Source of the DNA: an uncultured Gammaproteobacteria bacterium
GTDB taxonomy: Bacteria; Pseudomonadota; Gammaproteobacteria; Nitrosococcales; Methylophagaceae
Reading direction: 5' to 3'
Assembly (NCBI GenBank): GCA_905479985.1
Contig: CAJQOM010000040.1
Span: forward strand, 1 to 36,121
DNA length: 36,121 bases
A program made the position numbers and the translations under genes. This document shows positions 3,232 to 34,903 of the stretch, piece by piece. The notes beneath the pieces are model-generated. The model was not told the origin of the DNA. It saw nothing but the letters and a program-made list of their open reading frames with translations, and did not search any database. How positions within the stretch are numbered: the stretch's first letter is position 1; each line of letters begins with the position of its first letter.

Positions 3232-3606
3232 ATGAAAAAAATGACTTATATGGTAGATCCAGATATAGCATTTTGCGAACGTATTAGTTCGCTATTATCT
3301 TCTTCGTCTTTAGCAACCAAAACATTTGGTCGAGCTAAAGATTTCTTGGAGCAATCTGATTCAATGGAGCCGGATAGTCTTTTAATACTGAGTAGCAATA
3401 TTCCAGATATGGATACTGTTGAAGTGATGCAAGAACTTAAAAAAAGGGGCAACGATATTCCAGTCATCGTAGTGGGAGAAGATGATGACGTTCCACAAGC
3501 AGTAAAATTTATGCGTGCTGGGGCTGTTGACTTTATCTGGAAGCCTTTGGCTAATCAGAAATTAAAAGCATTAATTGAAAAGTTGGGTGTAAGCATAAAT
3601 AAATAG
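3232..3606 (+). CDS. Atypical stand-alone receiver (pseudo-receiver) protein
   Basis: A 124-residue protein made only of a receiver-like fold. The FMRAGAVDFIWKPLANQKL region matches FixJ-type receivers, including the one at 2370 (VLKAGAVDFIQKPYHEQNL), so common origin is clear. The phospho-acceptor position is occupied by Ser54 (LLILSSNIPDMD aligned with CLVLDVRMARMS). The acidic pocket is reduced to VDPD, while the conserved Lys (WKP) remains. It should therefore not be phosphorylated in the usual way and may act as a dominant partner or as a sensor of something else. Its stop is 14 bases before the DUF3604 start, so it probably heads that operon. Start ATG 3232 has a weak ribosome site; ATG 3241 is an alternative. 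Confidence 0.85.
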   Translation: MKKMTYMVDPDIAFCERISSLLSSSSLATKTFGRAKDFLEQSDSMEPDSLLILSSNIPDMDTVEVMQELKKRGNDIPVIVVGEDDDVPQAVKFMRAGAVDFIWKPLANQKLKALIEKLGVSINK

Positions 3607-3620: not shown

Positions 3621-5519
3621 ATGAAAAAAATAACAATAAATTCAGCTTTGGTTTTGAGTTTAATTGCGATCCCATGTTTTGCTCAAGATGCACCGCCGCC
3701 ATCGGACAAGAAGGTTAAATATTCTCCTTACCCAGAGAAGAACTTTCCGAATCAAGTCTATTTTGGTGATACACATTTACATACCTCATATTCTACTGAT
3801 GCAGGAATGATTGGTAATATTCGCGGCCCTGAAGATGCGTATCGTGTATCAAGAGGCGAAGTGATTACATCCAGTCATGGATTAAAGGTTAAATTGAAAC
3901 GTCCATTAGATTTTGTTGTGGTTTCGGATCATGCGGAGAACCTAGGCTTGGCACCTGCCATCGCAGAATCTAATGAAGAGCTTTTGGCGAATGAGTGGGG
4001 TAAGGCAATTTATGAAGCCGCTAATAGTGGGAAGGTGACTGATGCTTTTGACATGTGGATTAAGCAAGTTAATCTTAGTGAAGATAAGCTTAAAGATACA
4101 GGCTTTGCTAAAACATTTTGGTCGCGTGAAATAGCTGCGGCCGAAAAATATAATGAGCCTGGTCTTTTTACCGCATTTATTGGTTTTGAATGGACATCGA
4201 TGCCAGGCGGCAGAAATTTACATAGAAATGTAATCTTCCGTGACAATGGAGAAAGGGCAAGTCAAGTCGTTCCTATATCTTCTTATGACTCATTAGACCC
4301 CGAAGATTTGTGGGAATATTTAGCCGCTTACGAAAAGAAAACAGGCGGTCAAGTTATGGCTATTGCACATAATGGTAACGTCTCAAATGGGACTATGTTT
4401 GACGACATAACGTTGACGACTAAAGAACCGATTGATCGTGATTATGCTGAGCGCCGCATGATGTGGGAGCCTATTTATGAAGTGACTCAAATTAAGGGCG
4501 ATGGTGAAGCGCATCCCGCCTTATCTCCAAATGATGAATTCGCAGATTTTTACACTTGGGATACAGCGACATTAGGAGCCGATACAACCACGCCTGAAAT
4601 GTGGCCTCGTGATTACGCTAGACCCGCTTTAAAGCGAGGGTTAGTGTATGAAGAAAAATTAGGCGTCAATCCTTTTAAATTCGGAATGATTGGATCAACT
4701 GATTCACATACCTCAATACCCTCGACAGAAGAAGATAGTTTTTTTGGCAAAGTTAGCTTAGCTGAGCCTAGTGCTGATCCACATCACCGTTTTAATGAAA
4801 CAGTTCTTGGTCGAACCAATCCTGATGAAAGTAAAAAGATTTATCATTGGCAGGCAGCTGCTAGTGGCTTAGCCGCTGTGTGGTCACGTGAAAATACCCG
4901 AGAGGCGCTTTGGGATGCCATGAAGCGTAAAGAAGTTTATGCAACAACGGGAACAAGAATGAAAGTTCGTGTATTTGCCGGTTGGGATTATACGAAAGAT
5001 GATTTGGCTCGTTCTGATTTTGCTGAATATGGTTATGACCATGGTGTGCCCATGGGTGGTGATTTGAGTTCTGCTCCTAAAGACAAGGCTCCAACACTGT
5101 TGATCAGGGCGGTTAGAGATGCAGATGGGGCTAACCTTGATCGTGTTCAGGTGATAAAGGGCTGGGTCGATACAGACGGTGAGACACAAGAAAAAGTTTA
5201 CGATGTCGCCGTTTCAGATCAACGCAAGCCACTAAAAAATGGTAAGTATCCTCCTGTAGGCAATACAGTTAATTTGAAAGAAGTGACTTACACCAATGCA
5301 ATTGGGGCGCCCTTCCTTGAAGCTTTTTGGAAAGACCCGGATTTTGATCCGAAGCAGCGCGCTTTCTACTATGTGCGCGCGATTGAAATCCCAACGCCGT
5401 CATGGGTTGCATATGACTTGAAAGTGTTTGGAGGTGAAATGCCAAAGGGTGCGACAAATGAGACGCTAGTTCTTCAAGAACGCGCTTATACATCTCCTAT
5501 TTGGTATACGCCTAAATGA
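3621..5519 (+). CDS. DUF3604 PHP-like secreted protein
   Basis: A 632-residue protein with a clear Sec signal peptide (MKKITINSALVLSLIAIPCFA, cleaved before QD). It belongs to the DUF3604 family, which resembles PHP metal-dependent phosphoesterases. Visible motifs are FGDTHLHTSYSTDAG (HxH metal ligands), VVVSDHAEN, RNLHRNVIF, IAHNGN and GMIGSTDSHT. These suggest a periplasmic metal-dependent hydrolase, though no substrate is established for the family. ATG 3621 is chosen because GGAGGG sits 5 bases upstream and it starts the signal peptide. The end overlaps the PpiC gene by 4 bases (ATGA), and that gene overlaps the next in the same way, so the three are probably made in fixed proportion. DUF3604 genes are often found near sulfatases and similar catabolic genes, as here. 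Confidence 0.88.
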   Translation: MKKITINSALVLSLIAIPCFAQDAPPPSDKKVKYSPYPEKNFPNQVYFGDTHLHTSYSTDAGMIGNIRGPEDAYRVSRGEVITSSHGLKVKLKRPLDFVVVSDHAENLGLAPAIAESNEELLANEWGKAIYEAANSGKVTDAFDMWIKQVNLSEDKLKDTGFAKTFWSREIAAAEKYNEPGLFTAFIGFEWTSMPGGRNLHRNVIFRDNGERASQVVPISSYDSLDPEDLWEYLAAYEKKTGGQVMAIAHNGNVSNGTMFDDITLTTKEPIDRDYAERRMMWEPIYEVTQIKGDGEAHPALSPNDEFADFYTWDTATLGADTTTPEMWPRDYARPALKRGLVYEEKLGVNPFKFGMIGSTDSHTSIPSTEEDSFFGKVSLAEPSADPHHRFNETVLGRTNPDESKKIYHWQAAASGLAAVWSRENTREALWDAMKRKEVYATTGTRMKVRVFAGWDYTKDDLARSDFAEYGYDHGVPMGGDLSSAPKDKAPTLLIRAVRDADGANLDRVQVIKGWVDTDGETQEKVYDVAVSDQRKPLKNGKYPPVGNTVNLKEVTYTNAIGAPFLEAFWKDPDFDPKQRAFYYVRAIEIPTPSWVAYDLKVFGGEMPKGATNETLVLQERAYTSPIWYTPK

Positions 5520-6418
5520 AAAAATTATTTAAAGAACCTTTATTGGTTTTCCTGTTGCTGGGAGGCGCGATTTTCGCGCTCTACCAGCAAATACCAAACG
5601 ATTATCAGCCAGACAATGCTGAGATTATGGTAACGGAAGGCCAGATAAAAGGACTATTGGAAAGGTTTGAAAAAGTAAGGCAACGTTTGCCCTCTGAGGA
5701 AGAGGAGGATGGACTCATTCAAAACTATGTTCGTGAAGAGATTTTATACCGCGAAGCACTCGCATTAGGCTTAGATAAGGATGATGGTATTGTGCGTCGT
5801 AGACTCAATCAAAAAATGGATTTCCTATCGGAAGATCTTGCCAGTCTTGTCGAGCCGAGTGAGCAGGAATTGCAGGTTTATCTTGCAAAGCATCAAGATG
5901 ACTATCTAAAGCCTTCACGTTTTAGTTTTCGACAAATCTACTTTAATACCAGTAAACGTGGTGAGTCTGCACAATCTGCTGCGCTGTCTCTATTAGCTAA
6001 GCTCAAAGCAGAAGACACTAGTGATAATACGAGTACTGACGCAATGGGCGACCCCTTGATGGTAGCGCATCAGTTTGAGCATGAGACGGAACGGGGGATA
6101 CAGCGAGCTTTAGGTGCAGATTTTCTAAAAGCACTGGGTGAGATTGACACTAGAGGTTGGCATGGCCCCATATCTTCTGGCTTTGGATTACATTTAGTGC
6201 ATATTGATGAGCATACAGCAGGTAAAGTGTTCGAGCTTAATGAAGTGCGAGAACAAGTTATTCGTGATTGGAGTGCACAAAAGCGAGAGCAGACCAATAA
6301 AATCTTTTATCAGAACTTACGGAAGCGTTATACCGTTAAAGTAGAGAATCTTCCCAAGAAAAACTCAGCAAGTGAGAATATAACAACAAGCCTATCAATG
6401 AATGAGGCTGTAGAGTGA
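5516..6418 (+). CDS. Membrane-anchored PpiC/parvulin-type peptidyl-prolyl isomerase
   Basis: A 300-residue protein with one N-terminal membrane segment (about 8-25, LLVFLLLGGAIFALY). A charged SurA-like helical region follows (QNYVREEILYREALALGL), then a parvulin-type domain (about 125-235; FSFRQIYFNTS and GWHGPISSGFGLHLVHIDEH). It should be anchored in the inner membrane facing the periplasm, assisting folding of exported proteins. Translational coupling to DUF3604 (ATGA overlap) and to the HupE/UreJ-type gene (GTGA overlap) suggests a dedicated chaperone for one of those products. The isomerase domain is shorter and less typical than in SurA, so a purely chaperone role is possible. Confidence 0.85.
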   Translation: MKKLFKEPLLVFLLLGGAIFALYQQIPNDYQPDNAEIMVTEGQIKGLLERFEKVRQRLPSEEEEDGLIQNYVREEILYREALALGLDKDDGIVRRRLNQKMDFLSEDLASLVEPSEQELQVYLAKHQDDYLKPSRFSFRQIYFNTSKRGESAQSAALSLLAKLKAEDTSDNTSTDAMGDPLMVAHQFEHETERGIQRALGADFLKALGEIDTRGWHGPISSGFGLHLVHIDEHTAGKVFELNEVREQVIRDWSAQKREQTNKIFYQNLRKRYTVKVENLPKKNSASENITTSLSMNEAVE

Positions 6419-7422
6419 TACGCTTTTTTCCCCTTATCGTTTTGTTGTTATGTTCGGTTACGTTTGCTCATGCCGATGAGTATCGCCCAGCGTATCTTGA
6501 ATTAAAACAAACAAGTGTCGATGACTTCGATATGCTCTGGAAGGTTCCAGCTAAAGGGCAAACAAAACGTTTGAGCCTTTATGTCACTTTGCCAAATGAT
6601 GTAGTCACTACATCAGAGATGCGGGGCAATTTTGTTGGTGGTGCCTATATCGAACGATCGACTATTAAGCGGCAAGGTGGCCTTGCGGGCGCCCAAATCA
6701 GTATTAAAGGCCTTGAACGGGTATCAACAGATGTACTAGTGCGCATTCAACGACTCGATGGGACATCTGAAACGGCTCGGTTGAATTCATCATCAACGTC
6801 GTTCGTTATTAAAGGTGCGGCCCAGTTTTGGGATGTCGTAAATACCTATTTAGTCTTTGGTATTGAGCATATTCTTAATGGCTTTGATCACCTGCTGTTT
6901 GTGGCTTGTTTAATCTTCATTGCGGGCACGTGGCGACGCATTCTCATTACTGTTACAGGCTTCACTCTTGCACATTCAATCACCCTAACATTGGCAGGAT
7001 TGGAATTGATAAGGTTACCCATTCCACCAATTGAAGCAACAATAGCCTTGTCGATCGTTTTTCTTGCTAGAGAAATTGCATTAAACAGGCGCGATACGCT
7101 GACCTGGCGTTATCCGATTGCTGTTTCTGCAACTTTTGGTTTGTTGCACGGTTTTGGTTTTGCGTCAGCGCTTAGTGATATTAGCTTGCCACAAACTGAA
7201 ATACCTGCTGCCTTATTAGCATTTAATATTGGTGTGGAGCTAGGACAAGTTGCTTTTGTTGCCAGTGTGCTTTTGCTTTTCTGGTTAATAACACAAAGCT
7301 TTAAAATATTAAAAATTGAATCGGTTAATTGGCTGCAAAAAATAGAAAAACCCATGGCTTATAGCGTGGGGAGTGTGGCCATGTTATGGACGATGGAACG
7401 AGTATTTGTATTTTGGATCTAA
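6415..7422 (+). CDS. HupE/UreJ-family membrane protein
   Basis: A 335-residue protein with a signal peptide (about 1-20, ending AHA). It has a periplasmic beta-rich domain of roughly 120 residues and then about six membrane helices from residue 145 on. The motifs GIEHILNGFDHLLFV, GFTLAHSITLTLA and LLHGFGFASAL are the His-rich signatures of the HupE/UreJ_2 family, whose members are linked to nickel or cobalt transport. A metal role is therefore plausible but unproven. The GTG start is set by the 4-base overlap with the PpiC gene and by the signal peptide. Fused periplasmic domains of this sort are typical of the DUF3604-linked branch. It could supply metal to the PHP-like partner; this is inference. 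Confidence 0.82.
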   Translation: MIRFFPLIVLLLCSVTFAHADEYRPAYLELKQTSVDDFDMLWKVPAKGQTKRLSLYVTLPNDVVTTSEMRGNFVGGAYIERSTIKRQGGLAGAQISIKGLERVSTDVLVRIQRLDGTSETARLNSSSTSFVIKGAAQFWDVVNTYLVFGIEHILNGFDHLLFVACLIFIAGTWRRILITVTGFTLAHSITLTLAGLELIRLPIPPIEATIALSIVFLAREIALNRRDTLTWRYPIAVSATFGLLHGFGFASALSDISLPQTEIPAALLAFNIGVELGQVAFVASVLLLFWLITQSFKILKIESVNWLQKIEKPMAYSVGSVAMLWTMERVFVFWI

Positions 7423-7469: not shown

Positions 7470-8285
7470 ATGAAAGATTCAAACATAACATCACTTATTT
7501 TAATTTCATTTCTGGCAACAGTCACGCTACCTTGCGTTACTTATGCGGAGGGTGACAAGCAGAAACAGGATAAGACTGGAACAAACCCCATTAACTTCAC
7601 AAAAGATTTTCGTATCTATAACGAATATTCATGGCTAAATACCGATGGTGATGGCAACCAGAACTTGACGACTGCAGAGTTTAGAACCCCATTTCTTGGT
7701 GGCAAATGGCAGTGGCGAATACGTGCTCGGTACAACGCAATAAATGCTGACTTGAATAATGATGGAAGTGATGACATAGACAAATCAGGTTTTGGTGATA
7801 TTGACATGAGATTTATCACAGTTCCTTATGTAAATATGGCTAAGAAACAGGCCGTTGCATTTGGGCTGGAACTGTTCCTGGATACTGCTTCAGATGATGC
7901 TTTAGGATCTGGAGCAAATTCGTTAGGCCCTCAGATATTTTATGTGAAATTTTTGCCTAATGGCCTTTTTGCTCCAGGATTACAGTACAAATTCAGTGTG
8001 GATAAAGATAAAGGACGTAGTGACGTCGACCAAGTTTTGATTGATCTCAACTATCTTCTTATGGCAGAGGATAAGAAGTCATGGTTCTTCACCGATCCAC
8101 AAATTGTCATCGATAATGAAACTGATACTGAATTTGCTGTCGTAGATTTTGAGTTTGGCTGGATGATGACTAATTGGACTGATTTGAAGGGCCATAGTTT
8201 TTACATCAGGCCAAGTGTTGGGATTGGTGTAGATCGGCCAGTCGATGGCTCCGTAGAATTTGGTTATAAAATTGTCGGTTGGTAG
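7470..8285 (+). CDS. Predicted outer-membrane beta-barrel protein (phenol_MetA_deg-like)
   Basis: A 271-residue protein with a signal peptide (MKDSNITSLILISFLATVTL...YA, cleaved near EG). Alternating hydrophobic strands follow, typical of an outer-membrane barrel (FRIYNEYSW, WQWRIRARYNA, QAVAFGLELFLD, PGLQYKFSVD, YIRPSVGIGV). The layout resembles the putative MetA-pathway family, but the match is by pattern only. Two acidic loops look calcium-binding: an EF-hand-like DGDGNQNLTTAE near residue 56 and DLNNDGSDDIDK near residue 92. ATG 7470 is chosen because it starts the signal peptide and has GGAG upstream; the frame is open further 5' into the preceding gene. The gaps to its neighbours are 47 and 34 bases, so it belongs to the same operon. 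Confidence 0.72.
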   Translation: MKDSNITSLILISFLATVTLPCVTYAEGDKQKQDKTGTNPINFTKDFRIYNEYSWLNTDGDGNQNLTTAEFRTPFLGGKWQWRIRARYNAINADLNNDGSDDIDKSGFGDIDMRFITVPYVNMAKKQAVAFGLELFLDTASDDALGSGANSLGPQIFYVKFLPNGLFAPGLQYKFSVDKDKGRSDVDQVLIDLNYLLMAEDKKSWFFTDPQIVIDNETDTEFAVVDFEFGWMMTNWTDLKGHSFYIRPSVGIGVDRPVDGSVEFGYKIVGW

Positions 8286-11365: not shown

Positions 11366-13756
11366 ATGAAGTACATACCAATTTTTGTTTTGCCATCATT
11401 ATTGCTTTCATTTAATAATGTGTCGGCCTCACATGGTGAACTTGCTACTCCCCCGGCGGGCGCTGAGTTTGCTATTTCCAGTTCTGGTGTCAAGACTAAA
11501 GCTGTAGAAGGCTTTGGCGGCGTTATCGCGAAAAAATATAGCGATTCCAAGGAGTGGTGGGCTGATGAAAATCGACCTAAAGAAGATTCGCCCAATGTGA
11601 TCATCTTTTTATTAGATGATGTTGGTTTTGCTCAGGTGGGTAGCTTTGGCGGACTGATTAAAACGCCCAATATCGATAAGTTGGCGGCCAATGGCTTGCG
11701 CTTTAACAACTTTCATACTACGGCATTGTGCTCACCTTCTCGTGCAAGTCTGATGGCTGGGCGAAATCCCCATGCGATTGGCTTGGGTAGCCATGCTCTG
11801 ACGGCAATGGGTTTTCCTGGTTATAACGCTGTTATGCCGGAATCGGCTAAATCAGTAGCTAATTACCTTCAAGAAGCAGGCTATATTAATTATGCCTTGG
11901 GTAAGTGGGATCACACACCACTTTATGAGGTGTCACAAGTGGGACCATTTGATAGGTGGCCGAGTGGTGAGGGATTTCAACATGCATATACTTTTATGGC
12001 AGCAGACGTACACCAATTTGTACCTGTGATGTGGAATGATCATAGTCCTGAGGAGTATCGTAAATCAGAACATTTGGATAAAGATCTTGCTGATCGGGCC
12101 ATTAATTGGATTACTGGCCATAAATCGATTAAGCCTGATTTACCCTTTATGATGCTATGGGCCTCAGGTTCTATGCACTCACCACATCATGCGCCTGATA
12201 GCCATATAGATAGGTATAAAGGTCAATTTGATATGGGGTGGGATAAGGCGCGTGAAATTATTTTGCAACAGCAGATAGCCAAAGGCGTCGTCCCAGCGGG
12301 AACAAAATTAACAGAACGTATTGACCAGATACCAGCATGGGATTCGCTATCAGATCAGGAGAAAGGGCTTTATGCTCGTCAGATGGAAGTCTTTGCAGCA
12401 CAAATGGAATGGGTTGATTTGCAAATTGGTCGCGTAGTCGATGAATTGACGCGTATTGGTGAGTTAGATAATACCCTTATTTTTGTAACCGCAGATAATG
12501 GGGCAAGTGGTGAAGGTGGCCTCGCAGGGACCTTTAATGAAACTTATGTTCTAAATGGTTTGCAGACATCGCTTGAGGCGAATTTGAAGCATCAAGAGGA
12601 TTGGGGCCGCGAAAATACCTATCCGCATTATCATGCCGGTTGGGCGATGGCAGGTAACACACCATTCCGTTATTTCAAACAAAGTGAGCATCGTGGTGGG
12701 CAGGCTGATCACTTAGTTGTACATTGGCCTGATGGTATTCAAACTAAAGGAGAAGTTCGAAGTCAATATCATCATATCTCCGACGTTGCACCTACGATTA
12801 TGGAAGCTGCAGGGATTACAGTGCCCGCGGAATATAACGGTGTGGAGCAGCAGCCGATGGATGGTACTTCAATGATATATGCATTCAACCAGGCCGATGC
12901 GCCTAACCAGAAAGAACGCCAATATTATGAAATGTTTGGTAATCGTGCAATATGGGTTGATGGCTGGAAAGCAGTGTCATTACATGCTAATCGCATGCCG
13001 TGGGATGTGAATGTTGTTTTGCCCTTTGATCAAGATAAATGGGAGTTGTATCACGTTGCGGAAGATTTTTCTGAGAGTAATGACCTTGCTGAAAAATATC
13101 CAGAGAAGTTAAAAGAGTTGGTTGCGATATTTGATGAAGAAGCTTGGAAATATAATGTTTATCCGCTTTACGATGACATGATAAAACGACTTGGTGCTCA
13201 ACAAGACCGCCTCTTTGGTGACCAAAAAGAGTTTATTTATTATGCACCGGGTGCAGTTCGAATTGCAGAAAAATCATCAGCACCGGTCAAAAATCGTGCA
13301 CATACTATCGAAACCCAAATCGACCTCAACGGTGAAGAGGAAGGTGTTATTGTTGCTGTGGGAGGTATGACAGGCGGCTATACCATGTTTATCAAGGATA
13401 ACCACTTGTATTATGACTATAACTTCCTTGATGGTGTTCATTATATTTTGAAATCATCACCGTTACCTAAGGGTAAGACTGATTTGAAGTTTAGTTTTAC
13501 TAGAACCAAAGCTTTCGGTGGCGAAGGTGAACTTTATATCAACGGTCAAAAACAAGATGAAGTTGAGATGCCGCAAATGCATGTCAGTACTTATTCATTG
13601 GCAGAAACATTTGATGTTGGTATGGATACGGGGACTCAGGTTTCTGATGTCTATACGGGTGTAAATAAATTTACTGGCACGTTAGATCGGATTATCTTTA
13701 CAGTGTCCGATACCAACACCGTACCTCCACGTGCTTTACCAGCAATGTATCACTAA
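11366..13756 (+). CDS. Type I arylsulfatase, exported
   Basis: A 796-residue sulfatase with a signal peptide (about 1-22, ending VSA). The formylglycine signature CSPSR has Cys122, inside TALCSPSRASLMAGR. Metal ligands are Asp84 and Asp85 (LLDDVGF), Asp377 and Asn378 (TADNGASGEGG), with Lys438 in FRYFKQSEHRGG. In GKWDH (Lys180 to His183) the position usually held by catalytic His (GKWH) is Asp182, an unusual feature. The protein has a C-terminal beta-sandwich, and its length fits large bacterial arylsulfatases. It cleaves sulfate esters after maturation by a formylglycine-generating enzyme, which the next gene encodes. GAGGAG lies 8 bases before the ATG. Confidence 0.93.
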   Translation: MKYIPIFVLPSLLLSFNNVSASHGELATPPAGAEFAISSSGVKTKAVEGFGGVIAKKYSDSKEWWADENRPKEDSPNVIIFLLDDVGFAQVGSFGGLIKTPNIDKLAANGLRFNNFHTTALCSPSRASLMAGRNPHAIGLGSHALTAMGFPGYNAVMPESAKSVANYLQEAGYINYALGKWDHTPLYEVSQVGPFDRWPSGEGFQHAYTFMAADVHQFVPVMWNDHSPEEYRKSEHLDKDLADRAINWITGHKSIKPDLPFMMLWASGSMHSPHHAPDSHIDRYKGQFDMGWDKAREIILQQQIAKGVVPAGTKLTERIDQIPAWDSLSDQEKGLYARQMEVFAAQMEWVDLQIGRVVDELTRIGELDNTLIFVTADNGASGEGGLAGTFNETYVLNGLQTSLEANLKHQEDWGRENTYPHYHAGWAMAGNTPFRYFKQSEHRGGQADHLVVHWPDGIQTKGEVRSQYHHISDVAPTIMEAAGITVPAEYNGVEQQPMDGTSMIYAFNQADAPNQKERQYYEMFGNRAIWVDGWKAVSLHANRMPWDVNVVLPFDQDKWELYHVAEDFSESNDLAEKYPEKLKELVAIFDEEAWKYNVYPLYDDMIKRLGAQQDRLFGDQKEFIYYAPGAVRIAEKSSAPVKNRAHTIETQIDLNGEEEGVIVAVGGMTGGYTMFIKDNHLYYDYNFLDGVHYILKSSPLPKGKTDLKFSFTRTKAFGGEGELYINGQKQDEVEMPQMHVSTYSLAETFDVGMDTGTQVSDVYTGVNKFTGTLDRIIFTVSDTNTVPPRALPAMYH

Positions 13757-13820: not shown

Positions 13821-14870
13821 ATGATAATGAAAAATCATATTTTGTTAATACTTGCAGTGGTACTTATTGCTTTAGCTATGTTGGTTATGATGGATCGAAC
13901 AACACGGACTATCACGAGTACTTCAAAAACTAGTTTTCAATGTACAACACCAGAAGAAAGTGAAGTTTGGATTGAGGGTGGAATATTTACCATGGGTAGC
14001 GATGATAGTTATCGTGAAGAAATGCCTGCGCATAGTGTGAAACTCGATGGCTATTGGATGGATACGCATGAGGTTTCTAATGTTCAATTTGCTCAATTTG
14101 TGAAAGAAACAGGGTATATCACTGTGGCTGAAAGGATGCCAGATCCTAAGGAGTTTGTAGGTGTACCACCAGAGATGATGAAGCCAGGTTCAGTTTTATT
14201 CACGCCACCAGGTAAAGGTGAGCGAATGACTAGTTGGTGGACATATGTGCCTGGTGTTAATTGGAAGCATCCGGAAGGCCTTACTAGTTCGATTGAAAAC
14301 AAACCCGACTTTCCTGTCGTTCACATTGCTTTTGAGGATGCTCAGGCCTACGCCGATTGGGCAGGGCGTTCATTGCCTACGGAAGCGCAGTACGAGTTCG
14401 CTGCAAGAAGTAAAAAAGAAAAAGAGCGCTATGCTTGGGGGGGGGCAGAACTAGCTCCTAATAATCAATACAAAGCTAATACCTGGCAAGGCTTATTCCC
14501 GATACAAAACACCAAAGAAGATGGCTATGAAGGTATAGCACCTGTTGCGTGTTATGAAGCTAATGACTATGGCGTTTATGATTTAATTGGAAATGTTTGG
14601 GAGTGGACAGGAGACTGGTATGCGCCTCGACATGATCCAAAGGACAATGTTAATCCTCAAGGCGTATCGCAAGACAAAAGTTATGATAAAAATAATGTGG
14701 GTTATCCAGTGAGAACGATTAAAGGGGGGTCCTATTTATGTGCACCAAATTATTGTAAGCGTTATCGTCCGGCGGCTCGCCATGCTCAGGACACGGGATT
14801 AGGAACAGGCCATATTGGGTTCAGGACGGTTTTAAACACAAAGAAAGCGATACCGGTTTTCAGCAGATAA
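13821..14870 (+). CDS. Formylglycine-generating enzyme (SUMF1 family), membrane-anchored
   Basis: A 349-residue FGE-sulfatase family protein. After one N-terminal membrane segment (about 5-24) the domain begins at VWIEGGIFTMGSD. It ends with the active-site block GGSYLCAPNYCKRYRPAAR and GHIGFRTV. Cys307 and Cys312 match the two catalytic cysteines of true FGEs, which SUMF1-like proteins of other functions lack. It oxidises the CxPxR cysteine of a sulfatase to formylglycine; the obvious client is the upstream gene. Other motifs seen are YWMDTHEVSNVQFAQFV, WAGRSLPTEAQYEFAAR and DLIGNVWEWTGDWY. A membrane-anchored, probably periplasmic FGE implies that maturation may happen during or after export. 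Two start codons, 13821 and 13827, are equally possible. Confidence 0.92.
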   Translation: MIMKNHILLILAVVLIALAMLVMMDRTTRTITSTSKTSFQCTTPEESEVWIEGGIFTMGSDDSYREEMPAHSVKLDGYWMDTHEVSNVQFAQFVKETGYITVAERMPDPKEFVGVPPEMMKPGSVLFTPPGKGERMTSWWTYVPGVNWKHPEGLTSSIENKPDFPVVHIAFEDAQAYADWAGRSLPTEAQYEFAARSKKEKERYAWGGAELAPNNQYKANTWQGLFPIQNTKEDGYEGIAPVACYEANDYGVYDLIGNVWEWTGDWYAPRHDPKDNVNPQGVSQDKSYDKNNVGYPVRTIKGGSYLCAPNYCKRYRPAARHAQDTGLGTGHIGFRTVLNTKKAIPVFSR

Positions 14871-21899: not shown

Positions 21900-23127
21900 T
21901 GTGGATTCATCCGGTCGACGCAACACGCTAAACTTTACGTAAGTAAAAGGAGTGTTGCAAATGAAATACAGAGCTCGGACTTATTACACAGAAAAACAGA
22001 AGTCCCTGATGTGGGATCGTTGGCAGAAAGGTGATTCGCTGCACCAAATTGCAAGTCTATTTGATCGACATCATTCCTCAGTACAACGTATCTTTGCAGA
22101 GACCGGTGGAATACGGCCAGCTCAACGAAGTCGATCAAGATTAGCTCTGTCACAGGCAGAACGTGAAGAAATATCAAGGGAAATCGCGGCTCAATCATCC
22201 ATGCGAACAATTGCAGGCCTGCTCGGCCGCTCTCCTTCAACCATCAGTCGTGAAATAAAACGTAACGGAGGTTATGAGCATTATCGAGCCGTACAAGCTG
22301 AGCAATATGCATGGAAAAGAGCTAAACGCCCCAAACGCTGTAAACTCGTTAATAACAAACAACTCAGCCAAATCGTAGCTAAAAAACTTCGACGGCAATG
22401 GTCTCCTCAGCAAATAGCTGGGTGGTTAAAGACAGCCTATCCGGATGATGAGGGTTATCAAGTGTCACATGAAACCATCTATAGAACGCTGTTTATTCAG
22501 GCTCGCGGCGCTTTAAAAAAAGAGCTACAACAATGTCTTAGAAGCAAGCGTGTTATGCGTCGCTCAAAACACGCAAGCCTGAAAAATAAAGGCCTTGGTA
22601 AAATCGTCAATGCCGTATCGATTAGTAAAAGACCTCCGTCAATAGAAGATCGTGCCATTCCAGGCCACTGGGAAGGTGACTTAATCCAAGGGACTTACAA
22701 TACGTTTATTGTCACCTTAGTGGAAAGACACTCTCGTTATGTGATGTTGGCTAAAGTTACAAATAAAAATACTGCCACAGTGATCGCTGCATTAATAAAG
22801 CAATCTAAAAAGCTACCTAAAGAATTATACAAATCCTTGACCTGGGATCGAGGGTCTGAATTATCAGCTCATCAAGACTTTACGGTGGAACAAACATTCA
22901 GGTTTACTTTTGTGCTCCAAGTAGCCCTTGGCAACGCGGTTCAAATGAAAATACAAATCGTTTATTAAGGCAGTACTTTCCTAAAGGAACTGATTTATCG
23001 ATTCATAGCCAAAGTAAACTGAGTGCCGTTGCTCGCCAACTCAATGAAAGACCCAGAAAGACGTTAGAATATGAAACACCGGTACAAAGATTTAATGCTT
23101 GTGTTGCATCGACCACATGAATCCACA
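21900..23127 (+). mobile_element. IS30-family insertion sequence, complete length, frameshifted
   Basis: About 1.23 kb, the usual IS30 size. The ends are imperfect inverted repeats: TGTGGATTCATCCGGTCGAC on the left, and the right end ending GGTCGATGCAACAC-type sequence in reverse followed by GAATCCACA. Both resemble the E. coli IS30 ends. The 50-base leader before the transposase is identical to that of the element at the window's left edge, while the first 80 coding bases differ at about a dozen positions. No clear short target duplication was found. Orientation is opposite to the left copy, so the transposase 5' ends of both face the 21.8-kb interval. Confidence 0.88.
21961..23120 (+). pseudogene. 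IS30-family transposase, frameshifted
   Basis: The start at ATG 21961 is fixed by AAAGGAG 8 bases upstream and by the match to the left-edge copy. The reading frame holds the N-terminal HTH region (LLGRSPSTISREIKRNGGYE) and part of the DDE core ([19 protein letters not shown]). At the A3 run 22892-22894 one base is missing. The expected continuation ([20 protein letters not shown] and on to NACVASTT) lies in another frame to 23120. The uninterrupted product stops at 22968 and lacks the catalytic Glu of the NEN motif, so this copy should be inactive unless frameshifting restores it. Confidence 0.85.
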
Positions 23128-23141
23128 ACCCAAAGCGGACA
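23128..23141. repeat. Half of the palindromic repeat abutting the second IS30
   Basis: ACCCAAAGCGGACA is identical to 142-155 next to the left IS30 copy. See that entry for its interpretation as a broken symmetric target. Confidence 0.55.
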
Positions 23142-23597
23142 GTTAGGTTATTTAACTTCAGGAAGAAAGTACCTCAATAATTGGACGCCTCCATACATTG
23201 TGCCTAGGGCCAGAATCGAACCGACACAGCCGAGAAATCGAGGGGTTTTAAGTTGCTAGAGTAATCTTACGATCTTTGATAGTTAATTTCTTACAACGTT
23301 TGTCAATGTTATAAGCTGTTTCAAACAACCATAAATAATGGTGTAGGCAGTACAAATACGGAACAGGTTTTATATGGAGATTCATAGGGTCTGATTCTCG
23401 GACAAAGAGAGCATGAGTTCATTCGACATAATCTACCCTATTGTTTTCACGACGATGCATAACAGATCTACTTAAACTCACGCACATCACTTCCTAGTCA
23501 CTACGAATTAAACGTTACTACTTTCCGAATCTCATATTGAAAGGTAGAAATGCCATGACCTTGAGCTTCATTACAGTCCACATTAGAAGTTATATAC
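23142..23597. other. Gene-free junction between IS30 and the cobalamin operon
   Basis: These 456 bases contain no credible coding sequence. The tRNA-Leu-like fragment at 23199-23254 is the only recognisable element. The remainder, downstream of cobO on the minus strand, has no clear intrinsic terminator and may be decayed remains of an integrated element. Confidence 0.5.
23199..23254 (-). pseudogene. tRNA-Leu-like 3' fragment (anticodon loop to acceptor)
   Basis: Read on the minus strand, this runs from an anticodon loop CTTAAAA (UAA anticodon). A class-II variable arm (CTCGATTTCTCGG) follows, then a T arm GTCGG-TTCGATT-CTGGC that pairs with G-U wobbles, and an acceptor 3' strand ending GGCACA. 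The 5' half (acceptor and D arm) is absent, as in a remnant or attachment site left by an element that integrated into a tRNA-Leu gene. It is not a functional tRNA. Confidence 0.55.
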
Positions 23598-24206
23598 TTA
23601 TAATTCGATTCCTTTTTGAGCTTTAATTCCTGCTCGAAAAGCATGCTTAACATCATCAATTCGACTGACTGTATCCGCTTCTTCAATAATGGCATCGGGA
23701 GCACCACGGCCCGTGATAATGACATGCTGCATGTCAGGTCGTGCAGCAAGGTCGGTAATGACGGTATTAATATCAAGGTACTTCATTTTAAGCACTATAT
23801 TGAGTTCATCAAATAGCACCACATCAATAGTAGGATCGGATAATAGTTTCTTACAGACTTCCCAGCCTTCTTTTGCTGATGCTATATCTTGTTCTAAATT
23901 CTGAGTATCCCAAGTAAAACCATCGCCCATCACATGATAGTCCACTTCATTTGGAAAGCGACGGTAAAAGGTTTCTTCGCCAGTACTATATGCACCTTTA
24001 ATAAATTGTACAATACCTACTCGCATATTATGGCCTAAGGCGCGAGCAATCATGCCAAAACCTGAGGAACTTTTACCCTTACCATTACCGGTAATGACGA
24101 GGAGCAAACCCTTATCGATATTTGCTTGCTTTATTTTGTCGTCAACGACTGTCTTGTGGCGTTTCATACGCTTTTCATGACGTTGTGCTTTGTCTAAATC
24201 GGCCAT
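23598..24206 (-). CDS. cobO: Cob(I)yrinic acid a,c-diamide adenosyltransferase
   Basis: A 202-residue CobO/BtuR-family (CobA-type) ATP:corrinoid adenosyltransferase. The N-terminal basic helix is AQRHEKRMKRHKTVVDDK, and the modified P-loop is ITGNGKGKSSSGFG (about 38-51). VGIVQFIKGAY, VVLFDELNIVLKM and HVIITGRGAPD follow. It adds the 5'-deoxyadenosyl group to reduced cobalt in the cytoplasm. It is the last gene of the minus-strand operon, 18 bases after cobS. All motifs are intact and the length is typical. Confidence 0.97.
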   Translation of the reverse strand: MADLDKAQRHEKRMKRHKTVVDDKIKQANIDKGLLLVITGNGKGKSSSGFGMIARALGHNMRVGIVQFIKGAYSTGEETFYRRFPNEVDYHVMGDGFTWDTQNLEQDIASAKEGWEVCKKLLSDPTIDVVLFDELNIVLKMKYLDINTVITDLAARPDMQHVIITGRGAPDAIIEEADTVSRIDDVKHAFRAGIKAQKGIEL

Positions 24207-24224
24207 AATTCAAAAAACCTTTAT

Positions 24225-24959
24225 TTAAATAATAACAAAGCTTATTAAGCTTATTGTTTCGAGTATCTCAAGCATTGCTCCTGCTGTGTCACCTGTAGTG
24301 CCATCTAAGCGTTTTATCATGTAATAACGTAACACGAGCAAGGCCATGAGAAACACTGCTAACGCTATAAAATTAATGAGAATTAAGGCAAGAAAACTAG
24401 TAAGAGAAAGCATAATACGTAAAGGTTGGTGGGGAAGGTTGCCCACTAATGTTGAGCCTAGTCCTCCATGACGAACATAGGGTGTGCTGAGTAATAACAT
24501 GGGTAATGCCATTCGGGCTAAAACAACAGTGGCTACAATACTTAACCATTGTTGCTGTTGAATAAGTTCGGCCAACATAACAAACTTAATCAATAGAACC
24601 ATTAACAAGATAACAACGGCTATCGGACCACTAGCAGGATCTTTCATGATTCGTAGTGTTTTTTCTTTATCGCCTAAACCTCCTAACCACGCATCGGCAC
24701 TATCGGCTAGTCCATCTAGGTGTAGGCCGCCTGTTAAGGCAATCCATATACTTAGGGTTAAAACTGCACTGACCAACGGAGACTGTGAATTTAATAGGTA
24801 AATACACAACAGCATTATTCCACCAATGATAATGCCGACAAGTGGGTAGTAAACTATAGAGTAGCCTATATTCTTGGGCTTAACAGGTTCCAGAAGACGT
24901 ACCGGAATAGTAGTAAGAAATTGTAAGGCGATAAGAAAAGATTGCCATTGATTAGTCAT
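24225..24959 (-). CDS. cobS: Adenosylcobinamide-GDP ribazoletransferase (cobalamin synthase)
   Basis: A 244-residue integral membrane protein of the CobS family, with six or so hydrophobic helices. The signatures are LQFLTTIPV, GGLHLDGLADSADAWLGG with the acidic metal and substrate residues, and DPASGPIAV. It joins adenosylcobinamide-GDP to alpha-ribazole(-phosphate) in the inner membrane. Its start overlaps the cobT stop by 4 bases, so translation is coupled. The length is close to the family norm. Confidence 0.97.
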   Translation of the reverse strand: MTNQWQSFLIALQFLTTIPVRLLEPVKPKNIGYSIVYYPLVGIIIGGIMLLCIYLLNSQSPLVSAVLTLSIWIALTGGLHLDGLADSADAWLGGLGDKEKTLRIMKDPASGPIAVVILLMVLLIKFVMLAELIQQQQWLSIVATVVLARMALPMLLLSTPYVRHGGLGSTLVGNLPHQPLRIMLSLTSFLALILINFIALAVFLMALLVLRYYMIKRLDGTTGDTAGAMLEILETISLISFVII

Positions 24960-26014
24960 TGTTCTGAAACCGAGGCTTGGGCAAAGGTTGCCATATTATT
25001 ATGTAGGGAACAGCTTAAGCGAATTAAAGGTAAGGCAATAGCTGCACCGCTAGCTTCACCCAATCTCATGCCAAGATCTAATAATGCAGAGGCATCTAAT
25101 TCAGCCAATATTTTTTGGTGACCCGGTTCGGCAGAGCAGTGACTGAATAAAAACCATTGTTGGGCATCAGGGCAGAGTCGTTGTGCTAATAAGGCGGCAA
25201 CGGAACAGATAAACCCATCGATTAACACCGGTAAGCCGACTTTGGCACAGTGAAGATAAGCGCCTGTAAGCGCGGCTATTTCAAAGCCACCTAGGTGGTG
25301 CAATATGCTTAGAGGAGAGCTCAATTGATCTTGGTGGGTATTTAAGGCTTGTTGGATAATATCTGCTTTTCGTTTAACACTGTGGGGCTCAAGCCCTGTT
25401 CCCGGCCCAACAAAGTGTTGAGCATCACGATTGAGGAGGGCGCAGGCAATAGCGGTGGCAGAACTAGTATTGCCTATGCCCATTTCTCCACCAATAAATA
25501 ATTGTGTTCCTGATTTGAATATACGGTTGATATGTTCTCGGCCAACTAGCATGGCTTGTTGGCATTGCTGTTCACTCATGGCCACTAATTTACTGAAATT
25601 GCTAGTGCCTGATGCGATACGTGAATCTTCTACATTATCAAGGGCTTCAAGTTGGCTTACGGTTCCCATATTAATAACTGATAATTGGGCGTTATTCTCT
25701 TTAGCTAATACACTAATAGCGGCACCACCGCGTGAGAAGTTACGAATCATTTCTGCTGTCACTGCTTGAGGGAAGGCTGAAACACCTTCTTCTACTATGC
25801 CATGATCTGCAGCAAATACGGTGATGTGAACCTTATCTATATTGGGTCGAACACTTGATTGTAAGCCGGCTAATTGAATGGCAATGGTTTCAAGTTGGCC
25901 TAATGAACCGGTAGGTTTGGTTAGTTGCTGCTGGCGTTCAAGGGCTGCTTGCTGAGTAAGTTGATTAACTTCCTTAACGGGTGATTCAAGCCATAGATTA
26001 AAATCAGGCATCAA
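24956..26014 (-). CDS. cobT: Nicotinate-nucleotide:DMB phosphoribosyltransferase
   Basis: A 352-residue CobT. It activates 5,6-dimethylbenzimidazole to alpha-ribazole phosphate. Seen are RQQQLTKPTGSLGQLE near the start, VFAADHGIVEEGVS, FSRGGAAISVL, the nucleotide site GGEMGIGNTSSATA, and the catalytic Glu320 in MRLGEASGAA. Its start overlaps the cobU stop by 11 bases, and its end overlaps cobS by 4. With bluB in the same operon, DMB is the expected lower ligand. Confidence 0.97.
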   Translation of the reverse strand: MMPDFNLWLESPVKEVNQLTQQAALERQQQLTKPTGSLGQLETIAIQLAGLQSSVRPNIDKVHITVFAADHGIVEEGVSAFPQAVTAEMIRNFSRGGAAISVLAKENNAQLSVINMGTVSQLEALDNVEDSRIASGTSNFSKLVAMSEQQCQQAMLVGREHINRIFKSGTQLFIGGEMGIGNTSSATAIACALLNRDAQHFVGPGTGLEPHSVKRKADIIQQALNTHQDQLSSPLSILHHLGGFEIAALTGAYLHCAKVGLPVLIDGFICSVAALLAQRLCPDAQQWFLFSHCSAEPGHQKILAELDASALLDLGMRLGEASGAAIALPLIRLSCSLHNNMATFAQASVSEQ

Positions 26015-26531
26015 TGTGTCCTTTTAAAATATGCGGTAGCCCAGCAACGGTAAGCCCAACATTATTGCACTGTTGGGCGATACGTTGATGCAATACACCG
26101 ACTTCATCACAGTAACGTCGCGTCAACTCGCCTAAAGGTGTGATGCCCATATTGGTTTCATTACTGACCATAATCAGATTGCCAGCTAAGTCTTTTATGC
26201 TTGTTATGAGCGCATCAATCTCGGCATTCAATAGGACATCATCATCTTTCATCAATAAGTTGGTTAACCAAAGTGTTAAACAGTCAACAAGAACACACTG
26301 GTCAGCACTGCAATACTGTTGTATTGCTGCTGCTAAATGGATTGGCGTTTCAATAGTCTGCCAGTCTGATGGTCGGCGCTGTTGATGGTGATCGATACGC
26401 CGTTGCATTTCATCGTCATCGGCTGAGGCAGTAGCAATGTAAATAACATTAAGTTTTGTATTTGAGGCTAACTGCTCAGCCAAAACACTTTTACCTGACT
26501 TTATACCACCTAAAATTAGTGTTGAGCTCAT
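26004..26531 (-). CDS. cobU: Adenosylcobinamide kinase / guanylyltransferase
   Basis: A 175-residue bifunctional CobU that phosphorylates adenosylcobinamide and then transfers GMP. The P-loop is GGIKSGKS (about 8-15). [14 protein letters not shown] carries the guanylylated-His region, with [12 protein letters not shown] and [19 protein letters not shown] downstream. Its length and motifs are typical. It overlaps cobQ by 4 bases and cobT by 11, indicating coupled translation. Confidence 0.96.
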
Positions 26532-27994
26532 AATGTTTTTTCCGATAAATTCAATAATTTGGCTAAATAGTCAGTGTCTATATGTTGATCAATCATATCT
26601 GCTAAACGGTCTATATCAGCTTCGCGTAGGGCATGATAGTCAATGGGGATGAACTCTTTTAATCCTGCCCATATGAGTAGGGCTGTACATGCTTCACTAT
26701 GTTCAAATAACCCGTGGATATATGTACCCAAGATTTGATTATCATCACTAATTGCACCTTCATTACGATTGTCAAATTGGCAGACGGGGCTTTTAAGTGC
26801 TTCGCCTTTGGTAATGCCCGCATGAATCTCATAACCTTCGACACAGGCATTATCTATATGTAAATGGCCCTTAACATTACGTAATTGCTTCGCTGGTTTT
26901 AAGGTGGTGATAAGGTCTAATAATTTTAGCCCTTCAATCTGACTTGCTGGACCTTCAATGGCATCAGGGTCATGAATTTTTTGGCCTAACATTTGATAGC
27001 CACCGCAGAGGCCTATTACTTTTCCGCCATAACGCAGGTGTTTATTGATTGCCTGTTGCCAACCGTTATCGAGCAACATTTGTAAATCATCCCTGACATT
27101 TTTAGATCCGGGTAATATGATTAAATCTGCATCAGGAATATCGTCTTGCAGGCTAATAAACTGTAAATCAATGTCTGGATGTAGACGTAGAGGATCAAAG
27201 TCGGTGTGATTACTGATGCGAGGATAAACCGGTACTATGACTTTAAAACTAGCCTGTTGGTTAACTTGCTGGGTATTGATGGCATCTTCGGCTTCAAGAT
27301 GAAAATCTTGTAAGTAAGGCAGGACCCCCAATACGGGCTTGCCAGTTTTATTCTCCAACCATTCTAAACCTGACTCTAATAAGGCAATATCACCACGAAA
27401 ACGGTTAATGATAAAGCCTTTAACACGCTCTTGTTCACTGGCTGATAAAAGTTCTAGTGTGCCAACGAGTTGAGCAAAAACACCACCACGTTCAATATCA
27501 GCTACCAAGATAACAGGACAGTCAACTACTTCGGCAAAGCCCATATTGGCAATATCATTTTCACGAAGATTGATTTCAGCCGGAGAACCTGCACCTTCTA
27601 CCATGACAAATTGATATTGTTGACTCAGTCGTTGGTGTGATTCTAATACGGCAGCCATCGCTGTCTTTTTATAGTGATGGTAGTCTTGGGCTTCCATATT
27701 GCTAAGTGCGTGACCATGAATAATCACTTGGGCACCAGTATTGCTATTAGGTTTTAGTAATACCGGATTCATATCAGTGTGAGGAGTGAGCATACAGGCT
27801 TGTGCTTGCACTGCTTGGGCACGACCAATTTCACCGCCATCAACCGTTACCGCACTATTTAAGGCCATATTTTGTGGTTTAAAAGGCGCTACAGAGTGAT
27901 TTTTCTGTTGTAGCCAACGACATAGCGCAGTAACGACGGTGCTTTTGCCCGCATCAGAACTAGTGCCTTGAATCATTAAGCTTACTGCGGTCAT
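26528..27994 (-). CDS. cobQ: Cobyric acid synthase
   Basis: A 488-residue glutamine amidotransferase that amidates four side chains of adenosylcobyrinic acid diamide. The N-terminal dethiobiotin-synthetase-like ATPase domain has [25 protein letters not shown] and [14 protein letters not shown]. The C-terminal GATase domain has nucleophile Cys in [12 protein letters not shown] and His in [10 protein letters not shown]. The start at 27994 is chosen because it gives a 4-base ATGA overlap with the cobD stop; the frame is open 14 codons further upstream. Confidence 0.97.
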
Positions 27995-28980
27995 ATTACT
28001 GTTAATCCTTGTATGGCGGTACTCAGTCGTTGCCAATCATCTTCTGTTTTAGCTAAGCCGAAGCGTAGGCTTTGTGGTTGGTCAAATAAGCGAGTATAAA
28101 TGCCTTGTTGTGCTAGTTGATGGTGTATCTGTTCAGCCTGTGATGTCTTTGCCCATTGAAATAAAGCACAGCCACCGAGTTCGGTTAATTCATTATCTCG
28201 CAGTAAGCTAATAAGCCGTTGGCCATCGTTTTGTAAAGAGTGGCGGCACTGTTGTTGCCAAGCTGTATCCGCTAGGGCTAATTGGGTAATATATCTTGAT
28301 GCACTGGCAATTGGCCATGGGCCTAAACGTTCAGCAAGTATGTTTAATAAGCTTTCTTGTGCTAATACGAAACCTGTACGTAAGCCTGCCAAGCCAAAAA
28401 ACTTGCCAATAGAACGCAGTACGATTAACCCCGTTAGAGGACAATATGGGCTTAAGCTGTTTTCTGGCGTCACATCAATAAAGGCTTCATCAATTATCAA
28501 CCAGCCACCATGTTGTGCTAGTTGTTGATGCCACTCGCGCAGTTGTTTTGTGTTGAAATAACGTCCTGTTGGATTGTTCGGGTTGATAATGATGAGTACA
28601 TCAAGTGTGGCTAATTGATTATCAATGTCAGCAACATTGAGGCTGATAATCTCGTGTCCGGCTTGCTTCCATGCGTGTTGGTGTTCTGAGTAAGCAGGAG
28701 ATAATACGCCAACACGGCTATGCTCTCGACAATAGGGTAAGGTTTGAATCGCTGCCTGAGAACCTGAAACGGCTAACAATGAGTCACATTGATAATAGTG
28801 TTGGGCAGTGTGGCGTAGGCTGTCATCATTTTGTGGTAAATCTGACCAAAGCGAAGCTGGTAAGTTGTCAGGAACTGGCCAGCCATTAGGATTAATACCG
28901 GTAGAGAGATCTAACCAGTTCTCAAGAGGAATGTCATAACGTCGTGCCGCTGAATTCAACTTGCCACCATGTTCAAGCAT
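27991..28980 (-). CDS. cobD: Threonine-phosphate decarboxylase (CobD/CobC-type)
   Basis: A 329-residue PLP-dependent aminotransferase-fold enzyme. It supplies (R)-1-amino-2-propanol O-phosphate for the nucleotide loop. The N-terminal hallmark is [15 protein letters not shown], followed by [35 protein letters not shown] and PLP Lys193 in [13 protein letters not shown]. It is also called cobC in the Pseudomonas denitrificans nomenclature. It overlaps cbiB by 8 bases upstream and cobQ by 4 downstream. Confidence 0.95.
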
Positions 28981-29887
28981 AACTAAGCCCAGTGAGTAGC
29001 ACTAAAATCACTAACCAAAGCCAGACACTATGGCGCACTAAGCGTAATGCCCGTGTTATATCAGCTGCTTTTGGCTCTTGACCGGATCCTAAGGTAATGC
29101 GTTGCTGCCAGTGACCATCATATTGAGCTGGACCACCGAGGGTAATGTTTAATGCACCAGCACCGGATGCCATAACAGGGCCTGCATTGGGACTATCCCA
29201 CTGTTTAGCTTGCTGTTGCCATGCGTGCAAAGCGGTATTTGTCTTTCCTATTAAGGCATAAGTCAGAGCGGTAAGTCGCGCGGGGATATAATTTAATACA
29301 TCATCTAGTCTTGCTGCAAAACGCCCGAAATAAAGGTATTGTTGATTACGATAACCCCACATGGCATCTAGCGTATTAGATAAACGATAAAAAATGACCG
29401 CAGGGACGCCGCCGATTAAGAACCAGAATAGGGCAGAAAAAACACTGTCAGCACCATTTTCTAATACTGATTCTATGGCAGCACGAGGAATATGTAAGGT
29501 AGCAGGATCACGGCTAACAATTCGACTTGTATGATAACGTGCTTGTTGAATATCGCCAGATTCTAGAGATGAAGCAATAGGCTGTGCATGGTCGTGTAGG
29601 CTTTTGTGACCGATACATAGGGTTAACATGACCACTGCGAAAATGTTATTAATAATATCAATTTCAGCAATGTAATAGCAGACAGTGCTAATGGGTAGTA
29701 ATAATGCCATGACAGCTATAAAACCAGAGATTATTTGTTGTTTAGGTGATGATTTTTGCTGGTGAAACAACTGTTCTGTACGATTGGCCAAGTGACCAAA
29801 ACCAACCAAAGGATGCCAACGTTTTGGTTCACCGACAAGCCAATCGATAACTAAGGCTATAAAAATTATCAAGGTGCTTATAAGCAT
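28973..29887 (-). CDS. cbiB: Adenosylcobinamide-phosphate synthase
   Basis: A 304-residue membrane protein of the CbiB/CobD family, which attaches aminopropanol phosphate to adenosylcobyric acid. Motifs are DWLVGEPKRWHPLVGFG near the N terminus, IVSRDPATLHIPRAAIESVLEN, YRLSNTLDAMWGYR, and GPVMASGAGALNITLGGPA. Several hydrophobic helices place it in the inner membrane. Its ATG shares one base with the bluB stop (TGATG). Length and motifs are normal. Confidence 0.96.
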   Translation of the reverse strand: MLISTLIIFIALVIDWLVGEPKRWHPLVGFGHLANRTEQLFHQQKSSPKQQIISGFIAVMALLLPISTVCYYIAEIDIINNIFAVVMLTLCIGHKSLHDHAQPIASSLESGDIQQARYHTSRIVSRDPATLHIPRAAIESVLENGADSVFSALFWFLIGGVPAVIFYRLSNTLDAMWGYRNQQYLYFGRFAARLDDVLNYIPARLTALTYALIGKTNTALHAWQQQAKQWDSPNAGPVMASGAGALNITLGGPAQYDGHWQQRITLGSGQEPKAADITRALRLVRHSVWLWLVILVLLTGLSYA

Positions 29888-32410: not shown

Positions 32411-32420
32411 AAAGCTCTCC

Positions 32421-32440
32421 AGTGTGCCGACCCGCACACG
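32421..32440 (-). promoter_or_regulatory. Hairpin between riboswitch and first operon start
   Basis: On the minus strand GTGTGC and GCACAC form a 6-bp stem around GGGTCG, immediately before the GGAGAG ribosome site of the gene starting at 32410. It has no T-run, so it is more likely part of a translational expression platform for the upstream B12 riboswitch than a terminator. Confidence 0.45.
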
Positions 32441-32483
32441 ATATTTGAGTGAAAAAGTACGATATAAGCTATACCGTAAGTAC

Positions 32484-32995: not shown

Positions 32996-33001
32996 TATCA
33001 T

Positions 33002-33023: not shown

Positions 33024-33068
33024 ACCCTTGAATTTGGATCGCGGGTGAGCGAATCCTTCGGAGCAACA

Positions 33069-34892: not shown

Positions 34893-34903
34893 TTTAGATT
34901 TAA

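Follow-up and report, generated by a model that had tools for sequence, protein, structure and literature searches.

A PpiC-HupE gene pair as candidate helpers of DUF3604 enzymes

We analyzed a 36,121-nucleotide stretch of DNA from an uncultured Gammaproteobacteria bacterium (contig CAJQOM010000040.1; this whole stretch is the window below), focusing on three overlapping genes that encode a DUF3604 protein, a PpiC/parvulin-family protein (PpiC) and a HupE/UreJ_2 protein (HupE). In genomes sampled from the phylum of the window and from Bacteroidota, the subfamily to which this PpiC belongs was confined to those with a genuine DUF3604 gene, and a functional link between the PpiC-HupE pair and DUF3604 is well supported. 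We propose, with evenly balanced confidence, that exported DUF3604 enzymes have a dedicated helper pair in these two proteins, which would assist folding, handle metal through HupE and serve their clients in trans.

DUF3604 represents a large, unstudied enzyme family, present in about 7% of the sampled phylum genomes (20 of 299 over the cut-off) and nearly throughout one marine family (116 of 120 genomes). In the full text of 5.39 million open papers, PF12228 was unmentioned and DUF3604 turned up once, and no description of the trio was found in the open literature (subscription journals lay mostly outside the search).

Results

Organization of the trio

The three genes lie on the forward strand of the window:

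3621-5519, + strand: DUF3604 gene; ATG start at 3621 with a Shine-Dalgarno-like GGAGG just upstream; Pfam PF12228, E 3.2e-237
5516-6418, + strand: PpiC/parvulin-family gene; ATG start; Pfam Rotamase_2 PF13145, E 3.8e-11
6415-7422, + strand: HupE/UreJ_2 gene; GTG start; Pfam HupE_UreJ_2 PF13795, E 9.2e-45, and HupE_UreJ PF04955, E 1.9e-10

Each gene overlaps the next by 4 nt, with ATGA at the DUF3604/PpiC junction and GTGA at the PpiC/HupE junction. These overlaps had been reported in a sequence-only reading of the window, and the coordinates, starts and stops bear them out. Such 4-nt overlaps are frequent in bacterial operons and do not by themselves argue for a common machine; recurrence of the arrangement is the test.

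Co-occurrence at the genome level

Among 299 genomes sampled from the phylum of the window, 21 had a DUF3604 match, which exceeded the cut-off in 20. To define genuine DUF3604, one genome with a match below the cut-off (G130) and one with weak partial matches (G243) were dropped and two with remnants (G031, G162) were kept, giving a set of 19. Searched with a profile of the PpiC subfamily, 17 of the 299 genomes gave matches of 183 bits or more, 20 in all, and the next best match scored 72 bits. All 17 genomes fell among the 19 with genuine DUF3604 and none among the other 280 (Fisher p 8e-26, a guide only, since the genomes are related); with G130 and G243 retained, the counts would be 17/21 versus 0/278. 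HupE_UreJ_2 was more widespread (over the cut-off in 65/299 genomes); in 17 of these 19 genomes, a comparison by eye placed it no more than about 5 kb from a DUF3604 match, with G122 and G262 as exceptions. Among 198 genomes of Bacteroidota, the PpiC subfamily and DUF3604 occurred in the same 3, one of which was the sample centre, and in none of the other 195. The co-occurrence statistics by which the sequence-only reading had proposed to judge the trio thus proved strong.

Recurrence of the gene order

Relatives of the locus were collected by scanning 84,980 species genomes, which gave 140 relatives; the best 80 of these were kept as loci. Genes in the flanks were called by a greedy longest-open-reading-frame (ORF) rule, and the calls include spurious ORFs in high-GC loci. 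The trio was found again across phyla. Homologues of both PpiC and HupE were present in 39 of the 80 loci, adjacent and on one strand in all 39, and overlapped by exactly 4 nt in 17 of them. The order DUF3604-PpiC-HupE within 1 kb was seen in 31/80 loci, and in 8/80 the pair was farther off or differently ordered relative to DUF3604; another 18/80 lacked the pair where a contig end cuts a flank. Among the 39 pair-holding loci, 23 contained two to four DUF3604 genes, always with one PpiC. The same three genes are also annotated together in plasmid records of rhizobia and a Rhodobacter, one of these plasmids being typed as conjugative. On a Salipiger plasmid, the pair was missing from the annotated 12 kb to each side of DUF3604.

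Persistence of the link when the genes lie apart

For the 41 loci without a nearby pair, 39 genomes were searched for PpiC (L056 was left out, and two loci came from one genome). A PpiC match at E<=1e-20 was detected in 36 of these 39 genomes, whose DUF3604 loci had no close PpiC; the match reached at least 183 bits in 28 genomes and was weaker in 8 (96-158 bits, one a fragment). In G262, the PpiC-HupE pair is located about 40 kb from the nearest DUF3604 gene.

The marine family of G509 (the genome of locus L048, HTCC2080), which we take to be Halieaceae, offered a larger view of this situation. DUF3604 is strongly expanded there (loci L206-L225), with at least 10 scored candidates in many genomes and up to 60 first-look candidates in one (G553). 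PpiC was found in 97 of the 120 genomes, all of them DUF3604-positive, and the 4 DUF3604-negative genomes had no PpiC (Fisher p 0.001). Many DUF3604 paralogues are accompanied by usually one, mostly distant, pair, and most PpiC proteins of this family are diverged. In six loci with such a PpiC (L186-L190 and L196), HupE lay alongside PpiC and no DUF3604 was near; five of the six genomes belong to the G509 family, and the sixth (L189, G524) is absent from the family list. Several of these pairs adjoin ORFs that resemble enoyl-CoA hydratase and nitroreductase, as read from the sequence by eye.

In two genomes, G521 (L191) and G534 (L195), DUF3604 is followed by PpiC and no HupE was detected, suggesting that the link between PpiC and DUF3604 is the more direct one. 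A different kind of exception is seen in G031 (L149, 8037-9023), where one ORF joins an N-terminal piece of DUF3604 to a C-terminal piece of HupE; it is likely a decayed remnant of a deleted trio.

DUF3604 as a putative PHP-like metallohydrolase

The AlphaFold2 model of the DUF3604 protein (predicted local distance difference test score, pLDDT, 90.1; predicted template modelling score, pTM, 0.90) has a signal-like N-terminus, a PHP-fold domain at about residues 45-445 and a C-terminal immunoglobulin-like (Ig-like) beta-sandwich at about 445-632. The PHP fold of the model was recognized by Foldseek (2anu, E 7.7e-4) and by VIA-align, with Z 15.1 for 3e38 (BVU_3505; root-mean-square deviation, rmsd, 3.5 over 231 aligned residues, spanning model residues 41-585) and Z 15.0 for 2anu (TM0559; rmsd 3.2, 203 aligned). 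PsfC 7rty and Endonuclease Q 7k30 (Z 12.5 each) and RNase AM 9etk (Z 8.9) followed; absence of a family from the VIA-align lists was given no evidential weight. Neither single-sequence nor profile searches found a sequence match of DUF3604 to any solved structure.

Nine candidate metal ligands (H52, H54, D60, H104, E190, H201, H250, D361 and H363) were invariant in the alignment of 177/177 distinct full-length homologues, and this set of His, Asp and Glu residues presumably fits the PHP ligand pattern. By crude rules applied in place of a signal-peptide program, 131 of 134 DUF3604 sequences carry a hydrophobic, signal-like N-terminal segment and 37 of 134 a lipobox-like motif; a simple pattern found no Tat-like motif in the 134 proteins. 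Predicted fold and sequence thus support the secreted PHP-like putative metallohydrolase that had been read from the sequence. The protein shares its predicted fold with PHP phosphoesterases (3e38, 2anu, 7rty, 7k30, 9etk), of which 3e38 also has two domains, and differs from them in its large insertions, signal-like N-terminus and Ig-like C-terminal domain.

Two leads on its activity were set aside. The DUF3604 protein had no NCBIfam match even at E 10, so that kinship with CehA, a carbaryl hydrolase, was not supported. A substrate guess from neighbouring genes was also rejected: 123 neighbour ORFs, picked from 350 candidates via 150, gave small counts (Sulfatase 6, DUF1254 5, DUF6515 4, Phenol_MetA_deg 4), and the set from the G509 family differed little from control regions.

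PpiC as a putative membrane-anchored chaperone

The PpiC model (pLDDT 88.2, pTM 0.70) comprises an N-terminal hydrophobic helix (residues 8-25), a helical chaperone-like part and a parvulin-fold domain that contains Q140. The predicted fold of this domain is that of parvulins, with matches of Z 10-12.5 over 88-104 residues in addition to the PF13145 match, and the whole model resembles the chaperones SurA (1m5y, Z 11.6), PEB4 (3rfw, Z 11.5) and PrsA (6vj4, Z 11.2). PEB4 3rfw was also matched by profile (E 9.2e-10).

The active-site positions were assigned by what we take to be the canonical parvulin His pair (a first His on the HILV-type strand and the His of GxHxV), and that of Q140 was also read off the PEB4 alignment. 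At the first position, 22 of 27 PpiC sequences have Gln and 2 of 27 His; the second His (H226) is kept in 27/27. Judged from these alignments, the subfamily appears to lack the catalytic His pair of an active parvulin isomerase. "Chaperone" therefore suits PpiC better than "isomerase", because one active-site His is usually missing. The membrane-tethered parvulin chaperone of the sequence-only reading agrees with predicted fold and sequence, and we regard PpiC as a putative membrane-anchored chaperone of the parvulin family. It is like SurA, PEB4 and PrsA in combining a parvulin-fold domain with a helical chaperone part, and unlike them in its predicted N-terminal helix, read as a membrane anchor, in the Gln that replaces the catalytic His, and in an occurrence tied to one enzyme family.

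HupE and the metal question

HupE (PF13795, 152.6 bits versus a cut-off of 24.5) consists of a signal-like N-terminus, a periplasmic N-domain at about residues 20-140 and a C-terminal membrane permease domain with H152-x5-D158-H159, a His/Asp motif that we assume to be the one called HX5DH in HupE/UreJ proteins. It had been described as His-rich, which does not hold: counted by eye, there are 5 His in 335 residues, and only a small His/Asp set is conserved (H152, D158, H159, H187, H245). Across 26 HupE sequences, H152, D158 and H159 are conserved at 90% or more; in the one outlier, L065, the membrane domain seems to be read in the wrong frame.

In a report on HupE/UreJ-2 "anglerases", proteins with an N-terminal His domain bind Cu (Ang-1, dissociation constant about 74 nM) and Ni and are proposed to capture metal for uptake (PMC12537917); a term search of its main text found no mention of DUF3604 or PpiC. 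The HupE studied here resembles Ang-1 and Ang-2 in its PF13795/PF04955 permease and in its signal-like N-terminus followed by a periplasmic N-domain; the His that follows the predicted cleavage site in most linked homologues may be a further likeness. It is unlike the anglerases in the length of the N-domain (about 110-120 residues versus about 175 in PMC12537917) and in the Asp that stands in place of this His in some homologues. HupE had no profile match to solved structures at E<0.1, and homology of its N-domain to Ang-1 (9GCE) is therefore not shown; single-sequence search gave nothing convincing. In addition, a HupE/UreJ-like gene is reported to neighbour efflux genes of the RND and NreB types (PMC5557971), and metal-RND genes adjoin some HupE_UreJ_2 loci in our set (ACR_tran 3, HlyD_D23 2, DUF3240 3; 79 of 83 neighbours scanned).

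Genomic context in the window

The trio is surrounded by the following features:

404-2377, + strand: PAS histidine kinase (Pfam)
2370-2987, + strand: FixJ/NarL-type response regulator (Pfam)
3232-3606, + strand: receiver-only response-regulator domain, with 14 nt between its end and the start of DUF3604
7470-8285, downstream of the trio: ORF without a Pfam match
11366-13756, + strand: sulfatase (Pfam)
13821-14870, + strand: FGE-type sulfatase-modifying factor (Pfam)

We infer that the receiver-only gene and DUF3604 probably share a transcript. The histidine kinase and the FixJ/NarL-type regulator (404-2987) are a candidate regulator of the trio, and a histidine kinase-response regulator pair lies upstream of the trio in relative locus L038 as well. 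Further downstream, the window contains an alpha/beta hydrolase, MlaA, an outer-membrane-type protein, the sulfatase and the FGE-type maturase. A sulfatase of the window type was near DUF3604 in 8/80 relative loci, and a set like that of the window was seen near the trio in L034 (sulfatase and the same outer-membrane protein family) and L058 (sulfatase, outer-membrane protein and FGE family).

DUF3604 was not found in any of the 28 same-genus and 7 same-family relatives searched (28/28 and 7/7), and the trio is therefore an accessory element in the window genome. Its GC content showed no foreign signature. Elsewhere in the window, a transposase-like ORF at 21952-22968 (HTH_38 and rve domains) separates a block of genes on the + strand from one on the - strand, the latter reading like cobalamin synthesis. 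GC skew falls from about 0.12-0.20 (window 1-21000) to about 0 (23000-36121), and gene orientation switches there too, at about 21-23 kb.

Discussion

The gene order, its recurrence, the genome-level co-occurrence, the predicted folds and the conserved candidate ligands are shown by the present data. Folding and metal loading of DUF3604 would be the simplest reading, because this family of exported metalloenzymes is accompanied by one protein with a chaperone fold and another of the metal-permease type. DUF3604 would be secreted, probably by Sec, and would adopt a PHP-type metallohydrolase fold that holds a candidate multinuclear metal site, followed by the Ig-like C-terminal domain. Its probable reaction is hydrolysis of an ester, a phosphoester or a similar bond in a compound from the environment. 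PpiC, with its anchor in the inner membrane, may aid this folding in the manner of SurA, PEB4 and PrsA, as a chaperone and not as a standard isomerase. HupE, translated together with PpiC, may handle metal by means of its periplasmic N-domain and permease, and one PpiC-HupE pair could serve several DUF3604 paralogues in trans. Assistance in folding, delivery of metal and its direction are inferential elements of this explanation, and the same would apply to any statement on the identity of the metal or the substrate.

Several observations weigh against a dedicated helper pair. With 3 kb or more of flank to either side, 23 of the 80 loci still lacked the pair; by the criterion that the sequence-only reading had itself set, this frequent separation weakens its suggestion that the three proteins form one machine. 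The genes nevertheless continue to share a genome, since all 22 genomes behind these 23 loci are among the 36 PpiC-positive ones, and the functional linkage in that suggestion is supported by co-occurrence. Even at the genome level there are gaps: the PpiC subfamily was not found in 2 of the 19 DUF3604 genomes, G031 (a remnant) and G122, the latter also without HupE; no PpiC match at E<=1e-20 was found in 3 of the 39 genomes searched (G522, G528, G529), nor in 19 of the 116 DUF3604-positive genomes of the G509 family, some with many DUF3604 copies. Conversely, G241, which has no DUF3604, carries a distantly related PpiC-HupE pair next to a TonB receptor (L142, 7426-9752), and the pair is therefore usable elsewhere. 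Enrichment among neighbours of DUF3604 in the G509 family was weak, with TonB receptors at 7/112 versus 2/113 in arbitrary control regions of the same genomes.

Metal supply by HupE is the weakest step of the interpretation. With its Sec-like signals, DUF3604 would be metallated in the periplasm, and known HupE proteins are importers, by which metal would leave the periplasm for the cytoplasm. The pair may therefore draw metal inward instead, or metal may be passed along by the periplasmic domain. The residue after the predicted cleavage site is also not uniform (His in 48/69, Asp in 20/69 and another residue in 1/69 linked HupE sequences), and in the window HupE the site itself is ambiguous (TFA|HAD or AHA|DEY).

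In an alternative that we consider rather unlikely, the trio is an uptake unit: DUF3604 would free a small product or metal from an environmental compound, HupE would import it into the cytoplasm and PpiC would fold HupE or an outer-membrane partner, with no maturation of DUF3604. Members of the HupE family are presented as metal importers or accumulators in two sources (PMC5557971; PMC12537917), DUF3604 loci can adjoin TonB receptors, sulfatases and oxidoreductases, and the linkage between PpiC and HupE is tighter than that of either with DUF3604. However, in L191 and L195 PpiC remains with DUF3604 although no HupE was detected, and the usual combination of one pair with many DUF3604 paralogues, presumably of different substrates, is more in keeping with a general service than with a transporter of a single product.

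Horizontal transfer of three co-expressed genes that do not act on each other would account for the plasmid-borne trios, including the one on a plasmid typed as conjugative, and for the accessory standing of DUF3604 in the window genome. We nevertheless find such hitch-hiking improbable, as it does not predict that the pair persists in DUF3604 genomes when it is not adjacent, as in G262, in the 36 of 39 genomes and in the G509 family. Shared ecology, with PpiC as a general chaperone of outer-membrane proteins and HupE as a general metal importer, seems very unlikely. Although the PpiC model resembles general chaperones, such a chaperone would be expected more widely, yet the subfamily was present in none of the 280 phylum and 195 Bacteroidota genomes without genuine DUF3604.

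The helper-pair explanation can be sharpened, at the price of becoming doubtful, into a periplasmic folding-plus-metallation station, in which the inner-membrane chaperone and a permease whose periplasmic domain catches metal would load multinuclear metal sites into newly exported PHP hydrolases in trans. It is a similarly tentative idea, drawn by analogy, that in some marine bacteria such a station would serve a DUF3604 family that reaches ten or more paralogues in a single genome, in the way that an FGE acts on many sulfatases. Should DUF3604 activity depend on the pair, the enzyme expressed alone could be inactive, and co-expression of ppiC and hupE would be a practical lead. If the proposal is true, the trio would provide a test case for metal acquisition by exported multinuclear metalloenzymes.

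Enzymes with a dedicated maturation factor have precedents in sulfatases with FGE and in lipases with a steric foldase. The PpiC-HupE pair is like these systems in that the helper is encoded and co-occurs with an exported hydrolase family, and in that one helper may serve several enzymes. It is unlike FGE or the lipase foldase in having two candidate helpers, one of them permease-like.

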